Shown here: positions 2,780-63,066 of the stretch, one piece after another | How positions within the stretch are numbered: position 1 is the first letter of the stretch | How the letters are laid out: each line of letters starts with the position of its first letter | Source of the DNA: Proluteimonas flavola | Lineage (GTDB): Bacteria; Pseudomonadota; Gammaproteobacteria; Xanthomonadales; Xanthomonadaceae | DNA: 64,000 bases | Direction: 5' to 3' | Assembly: GCF_021191705.1 (NCBI RefSeq) | Contig: NZ_JAIWPU010000005.1 | Location: 248,001 to 312,000, forward strand | The notes under the pieces: model-generated | What the model saw: only the letters and a program-made list of their open reading frames with translations | Told to the model about the DNA's origin: nothing | The model's database searches: none | Made by a program: the position numbers and the translations under genes

Positions 2780-4680
2780 CGGGAATCCCTCATCAGGGTG
2801 CGCACCAGCGCCTTGGATGTGCGGTTCGGGACGGCGTTGCCGATCTGCTTCGTGATCTCGGTGGCCGTGCCGGCGAAGTCGTAAACCTCGCCCTCGTCGT
2901 CGAACGACGTGGCTCGCGCCAGCTCGCGCCAGTGCAGCATTCGGTAGTTCACGTCGATGCGGACCTCGTAGGCGCAGTTGTCGACGCGGATGTCGGCCAG
3001 GCCGAACCGATTCGCGGTGGTGATCGTGGGAACCGGCTCGTCGACCGTGTGCACTCGCGGCGACTGTCCCTCGCGCTCGCCGTAGTTCGGCACCAAGCAC
3101 GGCGCGGCCAGGCCCAGCTCGCCACGGTTCGCGCCCGTGATCGTCGGCAGCGGCTCGTCCATGCCATGCGTGCGCGTGTCGCCGTGGTGCGTGACCGGCA
3201 GCGCGAACGCCAGCGACTCCGACGTGGTGATCGTGGCCAGCGGCTCGTCGACGGTGCGCATGTCGCCAATGCGGCCGGTACCGACATTGCCGCGCATGAC
3301 GATCGGGTCGGCCAGTGCGAAGCGTGCCTTCGTCGTCATCGCCGGTACCGGCTCGGCGATCGAGGTCGTGGTCAGGCCCGAGCCGCCGCCGTAATAGGGC
3401 GCGACCAGCGGCACAGCCACGGCCTGATCGCCGCCCTTCGCGGTGGTCACCGTGCGCAGCGGATCTTCGGCGCTGCGCGGTGGGGCCTTGTTGCTGCTGT
3501 TCGACACGGGGACGATCAGTGGATCGGCGAGGAAGCCGCCGCCGGCGGTGCAGATCGTGGGTAGCGGCTCGTCGATCTGGCGCGAGGTGCGCCCGCCCGC
3601 GCTGTTCGTGCGGGTGACGATCAGCGGCTCGACCAGTTGCGGTCGTGCGCAGCCCGGTCGCGCGCCGCCGGCGCCGCCGGTGGTAATCGTCGGAAGCGGC
3701 TGGTCGAGATCGCGCGCGGCGCCACCGCCACCGGTCGCGAGCACCACGCCAAGGTCGGCGGCGCATTCGTCGACAAGGCCCAGCGCGATCGCCTCGGCGC
3801 GACTGAAGACCAAACGCGGCGGCATTCCGTCCATCAGAGCCTGGAGAGCGTCGATGTAGGGCTGCGGCCAGCGGTACTTCACCGCGCCGGCGAGGATGCG
3901 CCGGATGGTGTTCGGCTTCAGCGGGCGAGGGCGGTTGAAGATGCTCTTGCCGCTCAGCTGCCAGTCAATGATCTCGCGCGCGCCGCGCCACTTCGGGCGC
4001 GTGCCGAGCAGGTCGGTCGAACCCTTGCGGGCGTGGGACGGCTCCGGCCATTCCAGCGGACCGCGATCGCTGCGGCCGATCAGAAAGAACCGGCGGCGCG
4101 TGGTCGGGTCGCCATGGTCTGCGCAGCAGATCACTCGCCAGTCGACGCGGAAGCCGACGGCCTGCAGCGCGGCGACCCATGCGCGGAAGTACTCGCCGCG
4201 GCGCGACTTGATCGGGCGGCCTGTGACCAGGCTGCAGGGACCCCAGTCCACGAACTCGGGCACGTTCTCGATCAGGATCCGCGCGACGCGCAGCTCCGTG
4301 CACCAGCGCACGACGTGCCACGGGTCCATGCGCTGCTGGTCGTGCACGGGCCGCCCGCCGCGGGCGCGCGAGTGGAACACGCACGACGGGGCCGCCATCA
4401 GCAGGTCGAGCCGACCTTCCGGCACATGGTCGAGCGGCAGCGCGGATTCCAGGTCAGCACACTTGATGCGCGCTGCGTGGTCCGGATGGTTTCGCTGGTT
4501 CGTCTCGATCGCGACATCCCAGTGGTTCACGCCGACCAGCGACATCGGAATCCCGAGTTCGCGGAATGCGCGCTGCGCGCCGTTGGACATGCCGCCGGCG
4601 CCGCAGAACAGGTCCGCGACGATCCGGGTGCGCACCTTCGGCGCCGCGCGCTGGATGATGATCTCGCCGCCGTCAGCCAT
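2776..4680 (-). CDS. DNA cytosine-5 methyltransferase with seven internal repeats
   Basis: A 634-residue C5 methyltransferase. Motif I is DLFCGAGG (residues 23-30). The catalytic cysteine is Cys100 in APSCVFHS, which replaces the usual PCQ with SC, as in a subclass of phage enzymes. Motif VI is ENV (138-140), and a QIGNAVP-type motif X is near residue 612. Between catalytic core and C-terminus, residues 324-555 hold seven copies of a DEPLPTITT-type repeat. I chose the ATG at 4680 because it overlaps the upstream stop (ATGGCTGA); an in-frame ATG at 4707 is possible. Confidence 0.9.
   Translation of the reverse strand: MADGGEIIIQRAAPKVRTRIVADLFCGAGGMSNGAQRAFRELGIPMSLVGVNHWDVAIETNQRNHPDHAARIKCADLESALPLDHVPEGRLDLLMAAPSCVFHSRARGGRPVHDQQRMDPWHVVRWCTELRVARILIENVPEFVDWGPCSLVTGRPIKSRRGEYFRAWVAALQAVGFRVDWRVICCADHGDPTTRRRFFLIGRSDRGPLEWPEPSHARKGSTDLLGTRPKWRGAREIIDWQLSGKSIFNRPRPLKPNTIRRILAGAVKYRWPQPYIDALQALMDGMPPRLVFSRAEAIALGLVDECAADLGVVLATGGGGAARDLDQPLPTITTGGAGGARPGCARPQLVEPLIVTRTNSAGGRTSRQIDEPLPTICTAGGGFLADPLIVPVSNSSNKAPPRSAEDPLRTVTTAKGGDQAVAVPLVAPYYGGGSGLTTTSIAEPVPAMTTKARFALADPIVMRGNVGTGRIGDMRTVDEPLATITTSESLAFALPVTHHGDTRTHGMDEPLPTITGANRGELGLAAPCLVPNYGEREGQSPRVHTVDEPVPTITTANRFGLADIRVDNCAYEVRIDVNYRMLHWRELARATSFDDEGEVYDFAGTATEITKQIGNAVPNRTSKALVRTLMRDSR
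3013..3711 (-). repeat. Seven-copy protein repeat inside the C5 methyltransferase
   Basis: Degenerate repeats of 30-45 codons, each centred on D-x-P-L-P-T-I-T-T. Copies begin near residues 324, 369, 404, 440, 477, 507 and 545. Each is followed by a variable stretch and a hydrophobic LADPLIV-like strand. They occupy the target-recognition part of the enzyme. Confidence 0.85.
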
Positions 4681-13794: not shown

Positions 13795-13818
13795 CAAAAA
13801 CCCCGCCGGAGCGGGGTT
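13795..13818 (-). terminator. Rho-independent terminator of the immunity operon
   Basis: An 8-bp stem AACCCCGC/GCGGGGTT around a four-base loop, followed on the minus strand by a T-run. It lies 26 nt past the stop of the coiled-coil membrane gene and separates it from the leftward promoter. Confidence 0.85.
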
Positions 13819-13843
13819 CATGTGTACGGTGCTCGTGGCTCAG

Positions 13844-14302
13844 TTAGGGGCTGGGGCTGCCAGATGCCGCAGCGAACGCTCTCCATGCGCCGAGTGCGAC
13901 GCCGCCGACGGCCAAGATCGTGCCAAGCGTCCACGCGATGACCTTGTAGCCAACGCCGTACATCGAGACCTTATGCTCAGAATTCGCGAGTCGAATCTCG
14001 GCGAGCACTTTGCCCGCTTCAGCGTAGAACTCGGATGCCCGCGCCTGCGAAATCTTGGCGTCCGATTCGGACTGCGCCCGCATCGCGACAAAGTCTGTAC
14101 GCATGGCTGAAAGCTCGCCCCGGATGCTCTCTGCAACTGTGGCAACACGCGCCTCGGAAGCTTCGAGTCGTGCGTTCATCTCATGGCGGGTGACGTCTGT
14201 CATGGGCTCATCTTGGGGGCGGTCATCTTCCCGCGCAACTCTAGCCTCCCTGTACGCGAGCATGTTGATGGGGTCGTAGGGTCGTGCTCCCTGGTTACTC
14301 AT
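13844..14302 (-). CDS. Coiled-coil membrane protein, candidate exclusion or defence factor
   Basis: A 152-residue protein with an acidic N-terminus, a long heptad helix (about residues 40-108) and one C-terminal transmembrane segment near residues 122-144 (VIAWTLGTILAVGGVALGAW). It looks like a C-tail-anchored coiled coil. It is coupled by ATGA to the zinc-ribbon gene and followed by a terminator, so the two form the end of the repressor-linked operon. The position between repressor and leftward operator is that of lambda rexAB, known for phage exclusion; function here is inferred. Confidence 0.7.
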   Translation of the reverse strand: MSNQGARPYDPINMLAYREARVAREDDRPQDEPMTDVTRHEMNARLEASEARVATVAESIRGELSAMRTDFVAMRAQSESDAKISQARASEFYAEAGKVLAEIRLANSEHKVSMYGVGYKVIAWTLGTILAVGGVALGAWRAFAAASGSPSP

Positions 14303-14658
14303 TCCGTCTTCCTTCCGTCCTCAACCCAATCCCGCAGAATCGCCATCGCAAACATTCTCGCGTAGCCGCAGGAAGCGCATACGACTGCAAACAACGGGAG
14401 AGGAGGGTGCTCTGGAAGCACGACGAGTTTGCCGTCGTCGCCGACCTTCCCGCTAGGGATCATGGAGAAGCTTCCATCCCCATATCCAAAAGCAGTCAGC
14501 CAACGGTCTTCCGCGCAGACCTGGCATGCTTGTGGTCCCGCTGCTTTCCAGTTCAGAAACTCGGCTGCGTCGGCGCTAGATATCGTGGTGCCTTTGTAGG
14601 CAATCTCAGATATCCAGCCAGGGTGATCCGCCCGCATCGGCTCATGGCTATCGGTCAT
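14299..14658 (-). CDS. Zinc-ribbon protein paired with the coiled-coil membrane protein
   Basis: A 119-residue protein with two CxxC knuckles, CQVC (about residue 45) and CASCGYARMF (about residue 94), separated by a beta-rich stretch. This matches a widespread family of small phage and bacterial zinc-ribbon proteins of unknown function. The stop overlaps the start of the membrane gene by 4 nt. It is likely expressed in the lysogen because it lies downstream of the repressor gene. Confidence 0.7.
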   Translation of the reverse strand: MTDSHEPMRADHPGWISEIAYKGTTISSADAAEFLNWKAAGPQACQVCAEDRWLTAFGYGDGSFSMIPSGKVGDDGKLVVLPEHPPLPLFAVVCASCGYARMFAMAILRDWVEDGRKTE

Positions 14659-14700
14659 CCGTTCAAACCTCCCAGCTCCCTATCCAGCGAATGCGGCACG

Positions 14701-15060
14701 TCAATTGCAAACCTGCGCCCACGTCTTGTCCATTTCGCCCGCGCCCATTTGCTCCTCGAGCGCTTGTATGTCGCCGGCAGATACGAACCTCTGATACCCG
14801 CCCATCCCGCCGAACGAGTTCTTCGAGTTCACCTCTCCGCACACAACAGGTGCGCCGCTCTTCTTCGACAGATGGACGTTTCGGAATTCGGCGCTCGCGG
14901 GGTCTTTCAAATTCCGCTGAACTCGGCGCTGCATCTCGTAGGTGTAGTTCTGATCCTTACGGTCAGCTTCGCGTGCAGCTTTCATCTCTGGGTCTGAGCA
15001 ACCCGAGAGGGCAATGACGGACGTCACAACCGCAGCTAGCAACTTCCTTCCCATGCTCAT
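14701..15060 (-). CDS. Prophage lipoprotein
   Basis: A 119-residue protein with a signal peptide and lipobox LSGC (Cys about residue 21), so exported and lipidated. The mature part has a conserved LKDPASAEFRNV segment followed by a CGEVNSKNSFGG segment, a pattern seen in many gammaproteobacterial small lipoproteins. It lies between repressor and the zinc-ribbon gene, so a lysogenic-conversion or surface-exclusion role is plausible. A second ATG two codons in is possible. Confidence 0.75.
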   Translation of the reverse strand: MSMGRKLLAAVVTSVIALSGCSDPEMKAAREADRKDQNYTYEMQRRVQRNLKDPASAEFRNVHLSKKSGAPVVCGEVNSKNSFGGMGGYQRFVSAGDIQALEEQMGAGEMDKTWAQVCN

Positions 15061-15092: not shown

Positions 15093-15776
15093 CTAGTTGA
15101 ACCTGTCCACGCGGGCGCGCAGGTAGACCTTGCCGCCGACGATAGCCCCCCTGGGCAGGGGTAGCTCTGGATAAGCCTTGTTGTCGCTGTGAGCGTAGAT
15201 ACCAGCATCCTCGCCATGGTCCACGAGGCGCTTGATCTGCTGACCGTTGCCAAGGTTGATCAGGTACAGCCCATCGCCGTCGTATTTGGACACGCCCGTG
15301 TCGACAATCACGGAGTCGCCGGGCTGGATAACAGGAATCATCGAGTCTCCGCGCCCTGTGACCAGCACCAGGCGGCCAGGTGGCGGCAGGAACCCTACAA
15401 CGGCCCGGATGTAATCGGGCGGGAACTCGACCGCCCGGATCACTTCCGGGAAGTCCTCATTGATTCGTCCATCCCCCATATCCGCCTCCGCTGCGATCAA
15501 GTCGATGCGGAAAGAGTCTGACGAATCTGTCTCAGTCGCTGCGATGCGTGAGACGGATTCAGCAGGTTCACCCGAGACCTGGGGGAAGGCAGAAACGATC
15601 TTGTCCCAAGAACCCTCAGCTAGACGCTTACCGCCTTTCTTGCCGGCCGGATAGGCAAGGCGAGAGACATAGCTCGCGTCGATCCCCGTCTTCGCCGAGA
15701 TCTCCGACACACCGCCATGACCGATCTCGGCAATCAGCTTCAATAGCGCCATCCGTCGCCGTTCGTACTTATCCAT
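15093..15776 (-). CDS. Phage repressor, S24/LexA-type (cI-like)
   Basis: A 227-residue repressor. The N-terminal helix-turn-helix spans about residues 10-55 (VSEISAKTGIDASYVSRLAY). The C-terminal S24 domain carries the GRGDSM serine near residue 146 and a QQIKRL lysine near residue 182, the Ser-Lys dyad of LexA-like autoproteolysis. A clean Ala-Gly or Cys-Gly cleavage site is not obvious, so SOS cleavage is uncertain. It is divergent from the Cro-like gene across three operators and should hold both early promoters off in the lysogen. Confidence 0.9.
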   Translation of the reverse strand: MDKYERRRMALLKLIAEIGHGGVSEISAKTGIDASYVSRLAYPAGKKGGKRLAEGSWDKIVSAFPQVSGEPAESVSRIAATETDSSDSFRIDLIAAEADMGDGRINEDFPEVIRAVEFPPDYIRAVVGFLPPPGRLVLVTGRGDSMIPVIQPGDSVIVDTGVSKYDGDGLYLINLGNGQQIKRLVDHGEDAGIYAHSDNKAYPELPLPRGAIVGGKVYLRARVDRFN

Positions 15777-15795: not shown

Positions 15796-15811
15796 CTTAC
15801 CCGCAAGTAAT
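15796..15811. promoter_or_regulatory. Operator OR, repressor-proximal
   Basis: CTTACCCGCAAGTAAT, the weakest copy of the operator family, 20 bp before the repressor start. It probably controls the repressor's own promoter. Confidence 0.6.
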
Positions 15812-15826
15812 TGACCCTCGGGTATT
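15811..15826. promoter_or_regulatory. Operator OR, middle
   Basis: TTGACCCTCGGGTATT, directly abutting the previous operator (centres 15 bp apart) and reaching the -35 box of the rightward promoter. Confidence 0.65.
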
Positions 15827-15852
15827 GACTTGACCTTACCCAAGGGTAAGAT
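15825..15852 (+). promoter_or_regulatory. Rightward early promoter (pR-like)
   Basis: TTGACT (15825-15830), a 16-nt spacer and TAAGAT (15847-15852). The strong operator fills the spacer and overlaps the -10 box, mirroring the leftward promoter. The predicted start point falls at or next to the Cro-like ATG at 15859. Confidence 0.65.
15835..15850. promoter_or_regulatory. Operator OR, Cro-proximal
   Basis: CTTACCCAAGGGTAAG, a near-perfect palindrome differing from OL1 only in the two central bases; it covers the -10 side of the rightward promoter. Confidence 0.75.
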
Positions 15853-15858
15853 CGCGTC

Positions 15859-16098
15859 ATGATCACACTCCGCGCATACCTCACGAAACTGAGTCCCGAT
15901 GAGCAGGCGGCATACGCTTTGCGCGCCGGGACGACCATCGGCTATCTCCGCAAGGCCATGTCCAAAGGCCAGCGGTTCGACGGCGCTCTGGCGCGCCGAC
16001 TGGACGAAGAGTCCAACGGTGAGGTGTCCCGCCACGACCTCCGCCCCGACGTCTTCGGAGATGCGCCTACGGCCGTACCTCGCAAGGAGGCCGCATAA
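15859..16098 (+). CDS. Cro/YdaS-like DNA-binding protein
   Basis: A 79-residue helix-turn-helix protein (TTIGYLRKAMSKGQRFDG at about residues 25-42, then LRPDVFGD) of the YdaS/Cro group that pairs with S24 repressors. It is the first gene of the rightward operon. The ATG lies almost on the predicted transcription start, so the message may be leaderless or nearly so. Confidence 0.8.
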   Translation: MITLRAYLTKLSPDEQAAYALRAGTTIGYLRKAMSKGQRFDGALARRLDEESNGEVSRHDLRPDVFGDAPTAVPRKEAA

Positions 16099-16622: not shown

Positions 16623-17078
16623 TCAGAATCCGAGCTTGGAGTCGCAGGCGGTACACCACAGCGCATGTCCGTAATAGAGGGCGGTGCGCTGCAGAACGAC
16701 CTTCTTCCCGCTGTCGAAGCACTTCTGACAGAGGTAGTGGGGGGGCTGGACGGCATCGCTGTTCCCTTCGCTGATTTCGGGAAGCGGCTTGCTCTTGTAG
16801 ACCCAGACGCCCTCGGAGATTTGGACAAGCGCGTAGTTGTCGCGCTCGGACTGCATTCGCTTCAGCTCTCGAAGCTGGTCCTGTGTCTCGCGCAGGTTGT
16901 TCTGGATATCCGCCATCTGGGTTCCGTAGAGGAACAGACCCTGCTGCGCCTTGAGCAGTTGATCGTTGACCGCAGCGATCTGCGCGGCGACCAGGTTGTG
17001 GTCGCGGATCCCGACGGCAGCCGACGCGGCTTCCTTCGCGATGGTGAGTGAAGCCATGACCGCGCTTAACGAATCCAT
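16623..17078 (-). CDS. Reverse accessory gene B, coiled-coil plus zinc-ribbon protein
   Basis: A 151-residue protein with an Ala-rich N-terminal helix, a heptad coiled coil at about residues 45-85 (NNLRETQDQLRELKRMQSE) and a C-terminal zinc ribbon made by CQKC and CTAC (about residues 117-146). Similar small proteins occur as accessory genes in other prophages. It has its own leader element and GGAGG site. Function unknown; the architecture resembles a fusion of the two proteins at 13.8-14.7 kb. Confidence 0.75.
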   Translation of the reverse strand: MDSLSAVMASLTIAKEAASAAVGIRDHNLVAAQIAAVNDQLLKAQQGLFLYGTQMADIQNNLRETQDQLRELKRMQSERDNYALVQISEGVWVYKSKPLPEISEGNSDAVQPPHYLCQKCFDSGKKVVLQRTALYYGHALWCTACDSKLGF

Positions 17079-33156: not shown

Positions 33157-33729
33157 ATGAGCAACGAGAACCGCGCCTACAGCCTGTTGCAGGTCAAGAG
33201 CTACGACGACGACCAGCGCATCATCACCGGCATGGCGACCACACCTGAGACCGACCGGATGGGCGACATCGTGGAGCCGCTGGGTGCGAAGTTCGCCGCC
33301 GAGCTGGCACTGCTCTGGCAGCACCGCCACGACAGCCCCGTCGGCACGGTGAAGTTCGGCAAGCCGACGGCGAAGGGGATCCCGTACACCGCCTGGGTGG
33401 CGAAGATCGAGACACCGGGCGCGCTGAAGGATCTGTGCGACCTCGCGTGGCAGTCGGTGAAGGAGAAGCTCGTTCGCGGTGTCTCCATCGGCTTCCGCGC
33501 GCTCGAGTACAGCTTCATGGACGGCGGCGGAATCCGCTTCACCGAGGTGGAGATCTACGAGCTTTCGCTCGTGACGATCCCGGCGAACGCGTCGGCCACC
33601 ATCCAGACGATCAAGGCCTGCGACACCGGCCTGCGTCGCTCCACGCAACTCGGTGTCCGGCTGATCCAGCCGCCGAAGCCCGCGCCGAAGCGGCTCGAAA
33701 ACGGCGCCGTGCGACTGCTCGGCAACTGA
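33157..33729 (+). CDS. HK97-family prohead protease
   Basis: A 190-residue serine protease of the HK97 prohead family: WQHRHDSPVG (His) near residue 49, VRGVSIGFR (Ser) near 107 and ELSLVTIPAN near 135. It cleaves capsid proteins during maturation. Confidence 0.88.
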   Translation: MSNENRAYSLLQVKSYDDDQRIITGMATTPETDRMGDIVEPLGAKFAAELALLWQHRHDSPVGTVKFGKPTAKGIPYTAWVAKIETPGALKDLCDLAWQSVKEKLVRGVSIGFRALEYSFMDGGGIRFTEVEIYELSLVTIPANASATIQTIKACDTGLRRSTQLGVRLIQPPKPAPKRLENGAVRLLGN

Positions 33730-33833
33730 GCAACTGGGCCAACCGGCCCGCGGGGTGGAACCCGCTTCCCATTGATGCAGGCACTGCCCGGCGTGGAATC
33801 CGGGCCGAACGGCTGCGCCCACAAGGAACCGAA

Positions 33834-35285
33834 ATGAAGACCATCGCAGAGCAGCTGGAAGCCCTGAAGGCGACCCGCGAAGCGCACCAGAAGAAGATGT
33901 CCGAACTGGCCCAGAAGTCGATCGACGAAGGCCGTTCGATGAACACCGGCGAGGCCGAGGAGTTCGACAATATCGAGGGCGAGGTCAAGAACCTCGACGC
34001 CGACATCGAGCGCCTGACGCGTCTGCAGGCCGTGCAGGCGAAGTCGGCAACGCCGGCGGTCGTGACCGCGGCTGACAACGCGAAGGCGGCCGACGAAGCG
34101 GCGAGCCGCGGCGTCACCACCGGCGTGCAGGTCAAGAACACCGAGAAGCTCGAGAAGGGCATCGAGTTCGCCCGCTACGCGATGTGCACACTGAAGGCGA
34201 AGGGCAACCCCGAGCTGGCCTTCCGCCTGGCCGAGAAGCACTATCCGCAGAACGAGCGTGTGGTGAACACCCTGAAGGCGCAGGCCGAGGGTGCGGACCT
34301 GGGCGGCATCATGAAGGCCGTGGTCGAAGCCGGCACCACGCTGGATTCGACGTTCGCCTCGCCGCTGGTGGACTACCAGAACTTCGCCGGCGACTTCATC
34401 GAGTTCCAGCGTCCGCAGTCGATCATCGGCCAGTTCGGCCAGGGCAACGTGCCTGGTCTCAACGGCATCCCCTTCAACGTCCGCATCGCTGGCCAGACCA
34501 GCGGCGGCAACGCGAGCTGGGTCGGTGAAGGCGCGCCGAAGCCGCTGACCGGCTTCGACTTCAACGCGACCGAACTGCGCTGGGCGAAGGTGGCGGCGAT
34601 CTCGGTGCTGACCAACGAGCTGATCCGCTTCTCCAGCCCGTCGGCCGAGCGTCTGGTGCGTGATGCGCTCGCCGCCGCGGTGAACGAGCGCCTCGACATC
34701 GACTTCATCGATCCGGCGAAGGCCGCGGTGGCGAATGTTTCGCCCGCATCGATCACCAACGGCGCGACCGCTGTCGCTTCCGGCGGCAACGATGCCGACG
34801 CCATCCGTGACGACGTGCGCCGCCTGTGGGCGCCCTTCATCGCGGCGCGCAACCCGCCCCGCAGCGCGGTCTACCTGATGGACAGCACGACTGCGCTGGC
34901 TCTGAGCCTGATGCTCAATCCGCTGGGTCAGGTCGAGTTCCCGGGCCTGACCATGGCCGGCGGCACCTTCATGGGAGTGCCCACGATCGTGTCGGACTAC
35001 ATCCCGGCCGGCATCGTGGTGCTGGTGAACGCGCGCGACATCTGGCTCGCCGACGATGGCCAGGTGACGGTCGATGCCTCGCAGGAGGCCTCGCTGCAGA
35101 TGCTGGACAACCCGACGAACAACTCGGCGTCCGGCACCGCGACGAGCATGGTCTCGATGTTCCAGACCAACAGCACAGCATTCCGCGCGGAGCGCTACAT
35201 CAACTGGGCGCGCCGTCGCGCTTCCGGCGTGGCGTACCTGACGGGCGTGGCGTGGGGCCAGCCGGCCGCGCCGGGCGGCGGCTGA
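33834..35285 (+). CDS. Major capsid protein, HK97 fold
   Basis: A 483-residue capsid protein. The first about 100 residues form a coiled-coil delta domain probably removed by the protease. The rest shows the HK97 core, including the SWVGEGAPKP strand near residue 225 and the KVAAISVLTNELI segment. An AAGGAAC site precedes ATG 33834. Confidence 0.92.
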   Translation: MKTIAEQLEALKATREAHQKKMSELAQKSIDEGRSMNTGEAEEFDNIEGEVKNLDADIERLTRLQAVQAKSATPAVVTAADNAKAADEAASRGVTTGVQVKNTEKLEKGIEFARYAMCTLKAKGNPELAFRLAEKHYPQNERVVNTLKAQAEGADLGGIMKAVVEAGTTLDSTFASPLVDYQNFAGDFIEFQRPQSIIGQFGQGNVPGLNGIPFNVRIAGQTSGGNASWVGEGAPKPLTGFDFNATELRWAKVAAISVLTNELIRFSSPSAERLVRDALAAAVNERLDIDFIDPAKAAVANVSPASITNGATAVASGGNDADAIRDDVRRLWAPFIAARNPPRSAVYLMDSTTALALSLMLNPLGQVEFPGLTMAGGTFMGVPTIVSDYIPAGIVVLVNARDIWLADDGQVTVDASQEASLQMLDNPTNNSASGTATSMVSMFQTNSTAFRAERYINWARRRASGVAYLTGVAWGQPAAPGGG

Positions 35286-62990: not shown

Positions 62991-63066
62991 GGCCGGGTAG
63001 CTCAGTTGGTAGAGCAGGGGATTGAAAATCCCCGTGTCGGGGGTTCGATTCCCTCCCCGGCCACCA
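62991..63066 (+). tRNA. tRNA-Phe (GAA)
   Basis: A full 76-nt cloverleaf: acceptor GGCCGGG/CCCGGCC, anticodon loop with GAA at about 63,024-63,026, T-arm GGGGG-TTCGATT-CCCTC, A73 and CCA. Confidence 0.97.

Follow-up and report, generated by a model that had tools for sequence, protein, structure and literature searches.

A zinc-ribbon and membrane-protein gene pair in the rexAB position of a lambdoid prophage of Proluteimonas flavola

What do the genes between the repressor and the leftward operators of a lambdoid prophage in Proluteimonas flavola contribute to the lysogen? In the preliminary description of this locus, genes for a lipoprotein, a zinc-ribbon protein, and a tail-anchored coiled-coil protein were said to occupy the place of lambda rexAB, and the last two were suggested to be a phage-defence module. 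We refer to these genes and their products as A, B, and C, respectively, and to the whole 64,000-nucleotide stretch of DNA that was analysed as the window.

Position of the three genes

Profile matches to genes across the window indicate a prophage of the lambdoid type. The gene content left of the cI/cro switch includes a RecE-like exonuclease, and further prophage genes encode a CII-like activator, a DnaB-like helicase, the major head protein, the portal, the tape measure, and a J-type fibre. The immunity region (Table 1) has the order OL, terminator, C, B, A, cI, OR, cro; the corresponding map of lambda is OL, rexB, rexA, cI, OR, cro. The lambda rexAB genes are described as lying just downstream of CI (PMC12894663). 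As first described, A, B, and C are all encoded on the minus strand, in the same direction as the cI-like repressor, and the last two genes overlap by 4 nt (14299-14302). The G+C content of A, B, C, and cI is 57-61%, as compared to 66.5% for the window; low G+C relative to the genome is common for accessory phage genes.

With at most one mismatch, the palindrome TTACCCNNNGGTAA matches six times in the 64 kb (0.08 expected), and these matches correspond to four places, two of which match on both strands. Two places are beyond C (13732 and 13757) and two are in the cI-cro gap (15797 and 15836), with none elsewhere in the 64 kb. Because the palindrome is confined to OL and OR, we place A, B, and C where lambda has rexAB; the operators flank cI-A-B-C, so the earlier claim of a rexAB position was exact. 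Genes that lie between OL and OR in this position would be expected to be expressed together with cI in the lysogen. The genes also end at a terminator-like element, as had been proposed: C is separated from the next leftward gene by a strong hairpin with a U run. The hairpin has -19 kcal/mol, versus a mean of -9.48 for shuffled sequences (z = -4.29; 0 of 200 shuffles was as good). A consensus terminator scan also lists this hairpin, in a total of two sites in the region versus 1.7 in shuffles.

Beyond cro, another small protein of the zinc-ribbon type is encoded at 16623-17078 on the minus strand (phrog_1244, 3.6e-30). The first half of this protein looks helical and its C-terminal half contains CQKC and CTAC, with helix and ribbon in one chain. 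The 616-aa major head protein (33435-35285, plus strand; phrog_617) is long enough that it could accommodate a fused protease part, and a tRNA-Phe gene (62991-63066, plus strand), which lies rightward of the recognized phage genes, is a possible attachment site.

Table 1. Features of the immunity region, with positions in the window
Feature	Position	Strand	Remarks
OL-like operators TTACCCATGGGTAA and ATACCCAAAGGTAA	13732..13770	.	Left border of the immunity region
Terminator-like hairpin with U run, 3' of C	13796..13820	-	Stem 13812-13800
C, 152 aa, one C-terminal membrane helix	13844..14302	-	Divergent candidate for the anchored coiled-coil family
B, 119-aa zinc-ribbon protein	14299..14658	-	C45xxC48 and C94xxC97; leave-one-out profile, phrog_4293
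A, 119-aa lipoprotein	14701..15060	-	Lipobox LSGC18-21; phrog_2320 family
cI-like repressor with S24 peptidase-like domain	15093..15776	-	Peptidase_S24 7.5e-14; phrog_4 8.5e-27
OR-like operators, cI-cro gap	15797..15849	.	TTACCCNNNGGTAA matches
Divergent Cro/YdaS-like regulator	15859..16098	+	phrog_25161 1.2e-15; phrog_35 9.9e-11

Relatives of the three proteins

Searches with the single sequence of B gave no match in phages, viral contigs, plasmids, or genome contigs, and in 150 related genomes B matched itself alone. Single-sequence results alone would suggest orphan genes; relatives were revealed by family profiles. B has two CxxC motifs, starting at residues 45 and 94, and phrog_4293 matches its C-terminal end (2.3e-5). 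A search of 200 genomes of the order with phrog_4293 led to two loci (L002 and L003) with the same triad as the window: an S24-type repressor, a zinc ribbon, and a short protein with a membrane helix. In all, phrog_4293 had matches in two genomes out of 200 from the order, two out of 369 from the class, and one out of 14 controls, the last being an archaeon; phrog_6136, which does not match C, had them in one genome out of 119 from the taxonomic family and, again, in one archaeon among the 14 controls. Since both profiles also match archaeal controls, they are not specific to phages.

A five-sequence zinc-ribbon profile that includes the window, L002, and L003 matched in 20 of 398 genomes at E 0.01. 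We set the weaker matches aside and kept the 12 genomes with E ≤ 1.2e-4, which include the window and both earlier triad loci; in 10 of these 12, a gene for a membrane protein directly follows the zinc ribbon. Eight of the 10 membrane proteins are of the anchored type (the window and L042-L048), and reading by eye placed a repressor-type gene upstream in six of the eight (the window, L042, L043, L044, L046, and L048); in the regions of L045 and L047, also read by eye, the pair is present and no repressor was seen. In the other two (L049 and L050), which are not in a visible prophage, the partner of the zinc ribbon is a membrane protein with two helices. The same ribbon type lies outside visible prophage at L050 (3589-4250), L049 (3573-4248), and L018 (270-853), and in each of these the overlapping downstream gene encodes a different membrane protein. 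Zinc-ribbon relatives at L051 and L052, which have no such membrane partner, are beside peptide-precursor-like and transporter-like genes (by eye).

A 19-sequence profile from which the window was left out finds B at E 4e-16 among the 409 ORFs of the window, the comparison of B to the family by hhalign gives a probability of 98.6, and the four cysteines are invariant across the 19 zinc-ribbon sequences. These comparisons place B firmly in the zinc-ribbon family. No signal sequence is visible, and B looks cytosolic. A structure model of the zinc ribbon (pLDDT 77.9) gave no fold match at E 0.001 or better and none with Z ≥ 5; the low-score matches are generic ribbons such as TFIIS, NrdR, and MqsA, and A0A0H5ARH7, which matches best among viral proteins, is as long as PS1_27 (87 residues) and a candidate for that protein. 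We judged a Pfam match of B to Receptor_2B4, and matches of the B profile to RNA-polymerase and ribosomal zinc ribbons (best E 0.001), to reflect chance, composition, or generic ribbons.

The ties of C are weaker. Hydropathy indicates one strongly hydrophobic stretch near the C-terminal end (19-residue windows starting at 120-122). A leave-one-out anchor profile ranks C best of the 409 ORFs in the window, but at E 0.0026, and hhalign comparisons to the anchored family, which is phrog_6136/phrog_3556-like, give probabilities of 58.9 and 14.6. With the single sequence, we found one weak match in phages (E 6e-3), itself and one weak match in the 150 genomes (E 5e-4), and nothing in Pfam at E ≤ 1; a match to apolipoprotein E was judged to be due to chance or composition. 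The earlier label of C as a tail-anchored coiled-coil protein is supported for the single C-terminal membrane helix but not for the coiled coil: for residues 36-112, heptad periodicity (3.5/3.6) was equalled by 778 and 542 of 1000 shuffles. A heptad signal is found in 28 of 34 relatives of C (25 of 26 and 3 of 8 in two sets). Among relatives from the same order (L042-L047), just two of six have one (L043, L044, L045, and L047 do not), so its absence weighs less heavily against C than at first sight. We describe C as the putative membrane partner of B in the family's position, with a weak link to the family itself. Because of this weak link and the missing heptad signal, C could be a membrane partner of another kind than the anchored family.

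A belongs to the phrog_2320 family (1.2e-23), and a search of the 150 genomes gave matches to it in seven further members of the genus; we read the A-family proteins of L005, L006, and L009 individually. The viral-contig scan with A found no relative. In Gordonia phage Bosnia (L145), a lone A-family lipoprotein gene (3992-4309) lies on the opposite strand between the tail chaperone and tape measure genes, in a moron-like place. PADLOC-DB matches of A to BrxL (0.0026, over 44 residues) and PDC-S31 (0.033) were judged to be chance, and a single-sequence structure model of A was poor (pLDDT 63.2). Since A-like proteins occur outside immunity regions, we consider A to be a separate, envelope-directed cargo gene from another family than the pair.

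Recurrence behind phage repressors

Does the pair recur at other loci, or are its genes chance neighbours? We scanned viral and genome contigs, without regard to position, using an alignment of two anchors (L048 and PS1_26 of phage PS-1), both from repressor-linked loci; the search pattern in the anchor tail was MA[HK]GF[KG]W. The scan gave 64 and 24 loci, respectively. Judged by the anchor core, 72 of these are distinct, and in one more no ORF could be read. There were 27 distinct close loci from viral contigs with sufficient upstream sequence (L057, L058, L060-L082, L086, and L088), after L059 (290 nt upstream) and the near copies L083-L085 and L087 were left out. In 23 of these 27, a co-directional repressor lies within 1.2 kb upstream of the anchor, usually with one short partner gene in between; without L065, the PS-1 contig that was a source of the query, it is 22 of 26. 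The 23 repressors were identified by a local S24 profile (14), by Pfam (seven: L060, L062, the Arc-like L063, L066, L067, L074, and L082), or by eye (L064 and L068). No repressor was found within 1.2 kb upstream at L058, L072, L075, and L079; L079 has a zinc ribbon, and an HTH gene is 1.7 kb away. The order in the record of phage PS-1, on which we found no literature, is Cro, CI, zinc ribbon, anchor.

Among the 32 weaker viral matches (L089-L120), 21 were read by eye, and one of them (L098) has a repressor, a zinc ribbon, and an anchor; when all 32 were searched with the repressor profile, the single match was L093, a near copy of L086. By the same approach, 4 of the 24 genome-contig loci have a repressor upstream (L126, L127, L135, and L136), where L126 nearly duplicates a locus from the viral contigs, and L135 and L136 are near copies of each other. 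The association of anchor and repressor, strong among the close relatives in phages, is weak elsewhere. Reading by eye also found solo anchor copies in bacterial chromosomes (e.g., L130-L134) and copies among tail-type genes (L075 and L094), which argue against a purely exclusion-related role.

According to the preliminary description, its proposal would fail if the two families were always found apart; instead, the pair recurs at other repressor-linked loci. Its recurrence after repressors in other temperate phages supports the view that it is no chance neighbourhood. As a fixed unit, the pair fared less well: a zinc ribbon accompanies the anchor at 11 of the 23 loci (L060, L064-L069, L071, L074, L076, and L080), but the other 12 have another partner, and there are the solo copies. 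We assigned partner classes, lipoproteins, and the ribbon of L080 (CPCG and CNECG) by eye. L063 and L082 share a phrog_5893 partner, and the remaining partners are mostly short and helical-looking, with no PHROG match for the seven that were tested. Nor do lipoprotein and pair form one set, since A is present here but a lipoprotein is no constant companion of the pair. L076 has the window's own order (repressor, lipoprotein, zinc ribbon, anchor) with a different lipoprotein, and lipoprotein-like genes are in the same operons at L042, L057, L070, L076, and L081 (by eye).

Some of these operons have other features. Genes for SNase-type nucleases are in the repressor operon at L081 (3218-3721), L135 (3600-4004), and L136 (3588-4004), immediately upstream of the anchor gene or of the partner gene; the one in L135 was identified by Pfam (3.4e-21) and the other two by eye. 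At L068 (3377-4198), a CI-like repressor and a single zinc ribbon are followed by two tandem anchor-type genes.

For 27 loci, the window included (L063, L081, L044, L046, and L135 were left out), we asked if a palindrome present between cI and cro is found again in the 700 nt that follow the anchor, as compared to control segments. In 11 loci (the window, L042, L048, L057, L061, L064, L066, L073, L077, L088, and L127) the recurrence beats 95% of control segments, versus about 1.4 expected, which is approximate as the control segments overlap. In the other 16, including PS-1, it was not above 95% of control segments. The OL-OR position therefore has sequence support for part of the family.

The exchange of partners is clearest in two related phages (L067 and L070) that are 95% identical over 1337 nt. 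Their repressors differ (50 of 224 residues identical) and so do their partners, which are a zinc ribbon in one and another protein in the other. Within the anchor gene the homology sets in again (78% over 280 nt), and in the anchor core 58 of 62 residues are identical. In the membrane-helix tail there are 19 synonymous codon changes and 1 non-synonymous change. Across the family, the median dN/dS of the tail is 0.11 (42 usable of 153 pairs), for a tail that was partly selected by the search pattern. The family's membrane helix is under purifying selection and conserved as protein. The anchor tree (27 rows, without the window, L042-L047, and L098) is weakly resolved, with 2 of 24 inner branches starred; on it, the zinc-ribbon labels do not cluster (10 changes versus a shuffled mean of 9.4) and the helical-partner labels cluster slightly (6 changes versus 8.4).

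Possible roles and known systems

We propose that B and C may be a two-component lysogeny module that works like RexAB, with a soluble sensor and a membrane effector against superinfecting phages, and we judge the chances of this reading to be about even. A, B, and C would be lysogeny cargo, transcribed with cI in the prophage state. The small cytosolic B would be translated with, and is probably bound to, the tail-anchored inner-membrane protein. B would sense a superinfecting phage through one of its products, and C, anchored and probably an oligomer, would then disturb the membrane or block the infection there. We favour the sensor and effector reading because of the position, the overlap of the genes, and the analogy with two tested exclusion systems in which a soluble and a membrane protein are linked to a repressor: gp44/gp43 of CarolAnn (PMC6426606) and RexABpp of Pseudomonas putida P1 (PMC12894663). 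Several observations speak against this reading: no defence model matched, C has a weak tie to the anchored family and no heptad signal, and the operator palindrome did not recur above controls at 16 of 27 loci. In P1, moreover, the two genes directly after CI (PP_3897 and PP_3898) were dispensable against the 7B and 9A phages that were tested, and the defence is in the next two genes (PMC12894663).

As a tentative extension, which we rate as less likely than not, the family could be a widespread, modular exclusion system of proteobacterial temperate phages, with a conserved tail-anchored effector and exchangeable cytosolic sensors (the zinc ribbon, the phrog_5893 protein, or small helical proteins). 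A sensor that is swapped with the immunity region would change the target specificity while the effector is kept. If the pair does work like RexAB, then the rex position holds a larger, modular class of proteobacterial prophage defences, whose membrane part would be constant and whose sensors would be interchangeable and for which PADLOC-DB version 2.0.0 has no model. In that version, B and C had no match at E ≤ 1, and 10 proteins of related loci had none at E ≤ 0.01. A literature search, from which most subscription papers and all preprints were missing, found no description of a zinc-ribbon and anchor pair.

The pair might instead stabilize lysogeny by tuning the repressor switch, much as Hex of phage 434 guards the repressor from RecA-driven cleavage. 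The hex gene lies after, and partly overlaps, the repressor gene, and spontaneous induction is reported to be nearly 30-fold higher without it (PMC3564112); here, B-like genes overlap the repressor's stop at L042, L043, L060, L068, and L069. This role seems unlikely to us, as it would need no membrane anchor. Also, at L060, L066, L074, and L098 the repressor ahead of the zinc ribbon and anchor gave no S24 match, just other CI or HTH matches, and at L063 an Arc-like regulator precedes a similar anchor that has a different partner. By analogy, the stability and exclusion roles are not exclusive, as Hex is described as acting against phage P22 too (PMC3564112).

Another explanation is a block at the envelope of the Sie or Ltp type, in which the anchored pair and the lipoprotein would hinder DNA entry or adsorption without killing the cell. 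The recurrence of lipoprotein-like or SNase-type genes in the same operons would fit, and so would the precedent of Ltp of phage TP-J34, described as an exclusion lipoprotein (PMC3952083). We regard this as improbable given that B, with no visible signal sequence, looks cytosolic and that A-like proteins also occur outside immunity regions. Finally, resumption of homology within the anchor gene, after different repressors and partners in L067 and L070, would suit an anchor core that is kept mainly as a DNA joint for recombination of immunity cassettes, with the pair otherwise neutral cargo, but the synonymous changes and low dN/dS indicate that the protein is conserved and make this very improbable.

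Returning to the reading of B and C as sensor and effector, how does the pair compare to known systems? A relative of C at L048 resembles XhlA (PF10779) at E 9.5e-6, under the curated cut-off, and unlike xhlA its gene follows a repressor, with no lysis cassette as far as seen. Ltp is also a lipoprotein of temperate phages that is involved in exclusion (PMC3952083), but of streptococcal phages; A is accompanied by a zinc-ribbon and membrane pair, and the two are likened by type. Hex, like the genes considered here, is encoded after the repressor, on the PRM message (PMC3564112), but it is described as one protein that acts on RecA-driven repressor cleavage, whereas pairs of the B-C type also follow repressors without S24.

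For RexAB, a January 2026 paper counts only five such systems (PMC12894663). The described types (lambda, CarolAnn, Sbash, Butters, and P. putida P1) each have a soluble and a membrane protein that are expressed in the lysogen, and the lambda and CarolAnn pairs are cotranscribed with the repressor (PMC12894663, PMC6426606, PMC7542560). We tested for homology to RexA and for a four-helix RexB and found neither, and because of this we do not file the pair as a member. A sequence comparison of B for RexA gave one unrelated Pfam match (E 0.031), and B and its family profile found no RexA in the PDB at E ≤ 1. RexB of Sbash, Butters, and P. putida is described with four helices, and C has one by hydropathy. 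Judged from the sequence, the resemblance of the pair to RexAB is in its layout: the window pair lies after the repressor inside the immunity region, with one lipoprotein gene intervening.
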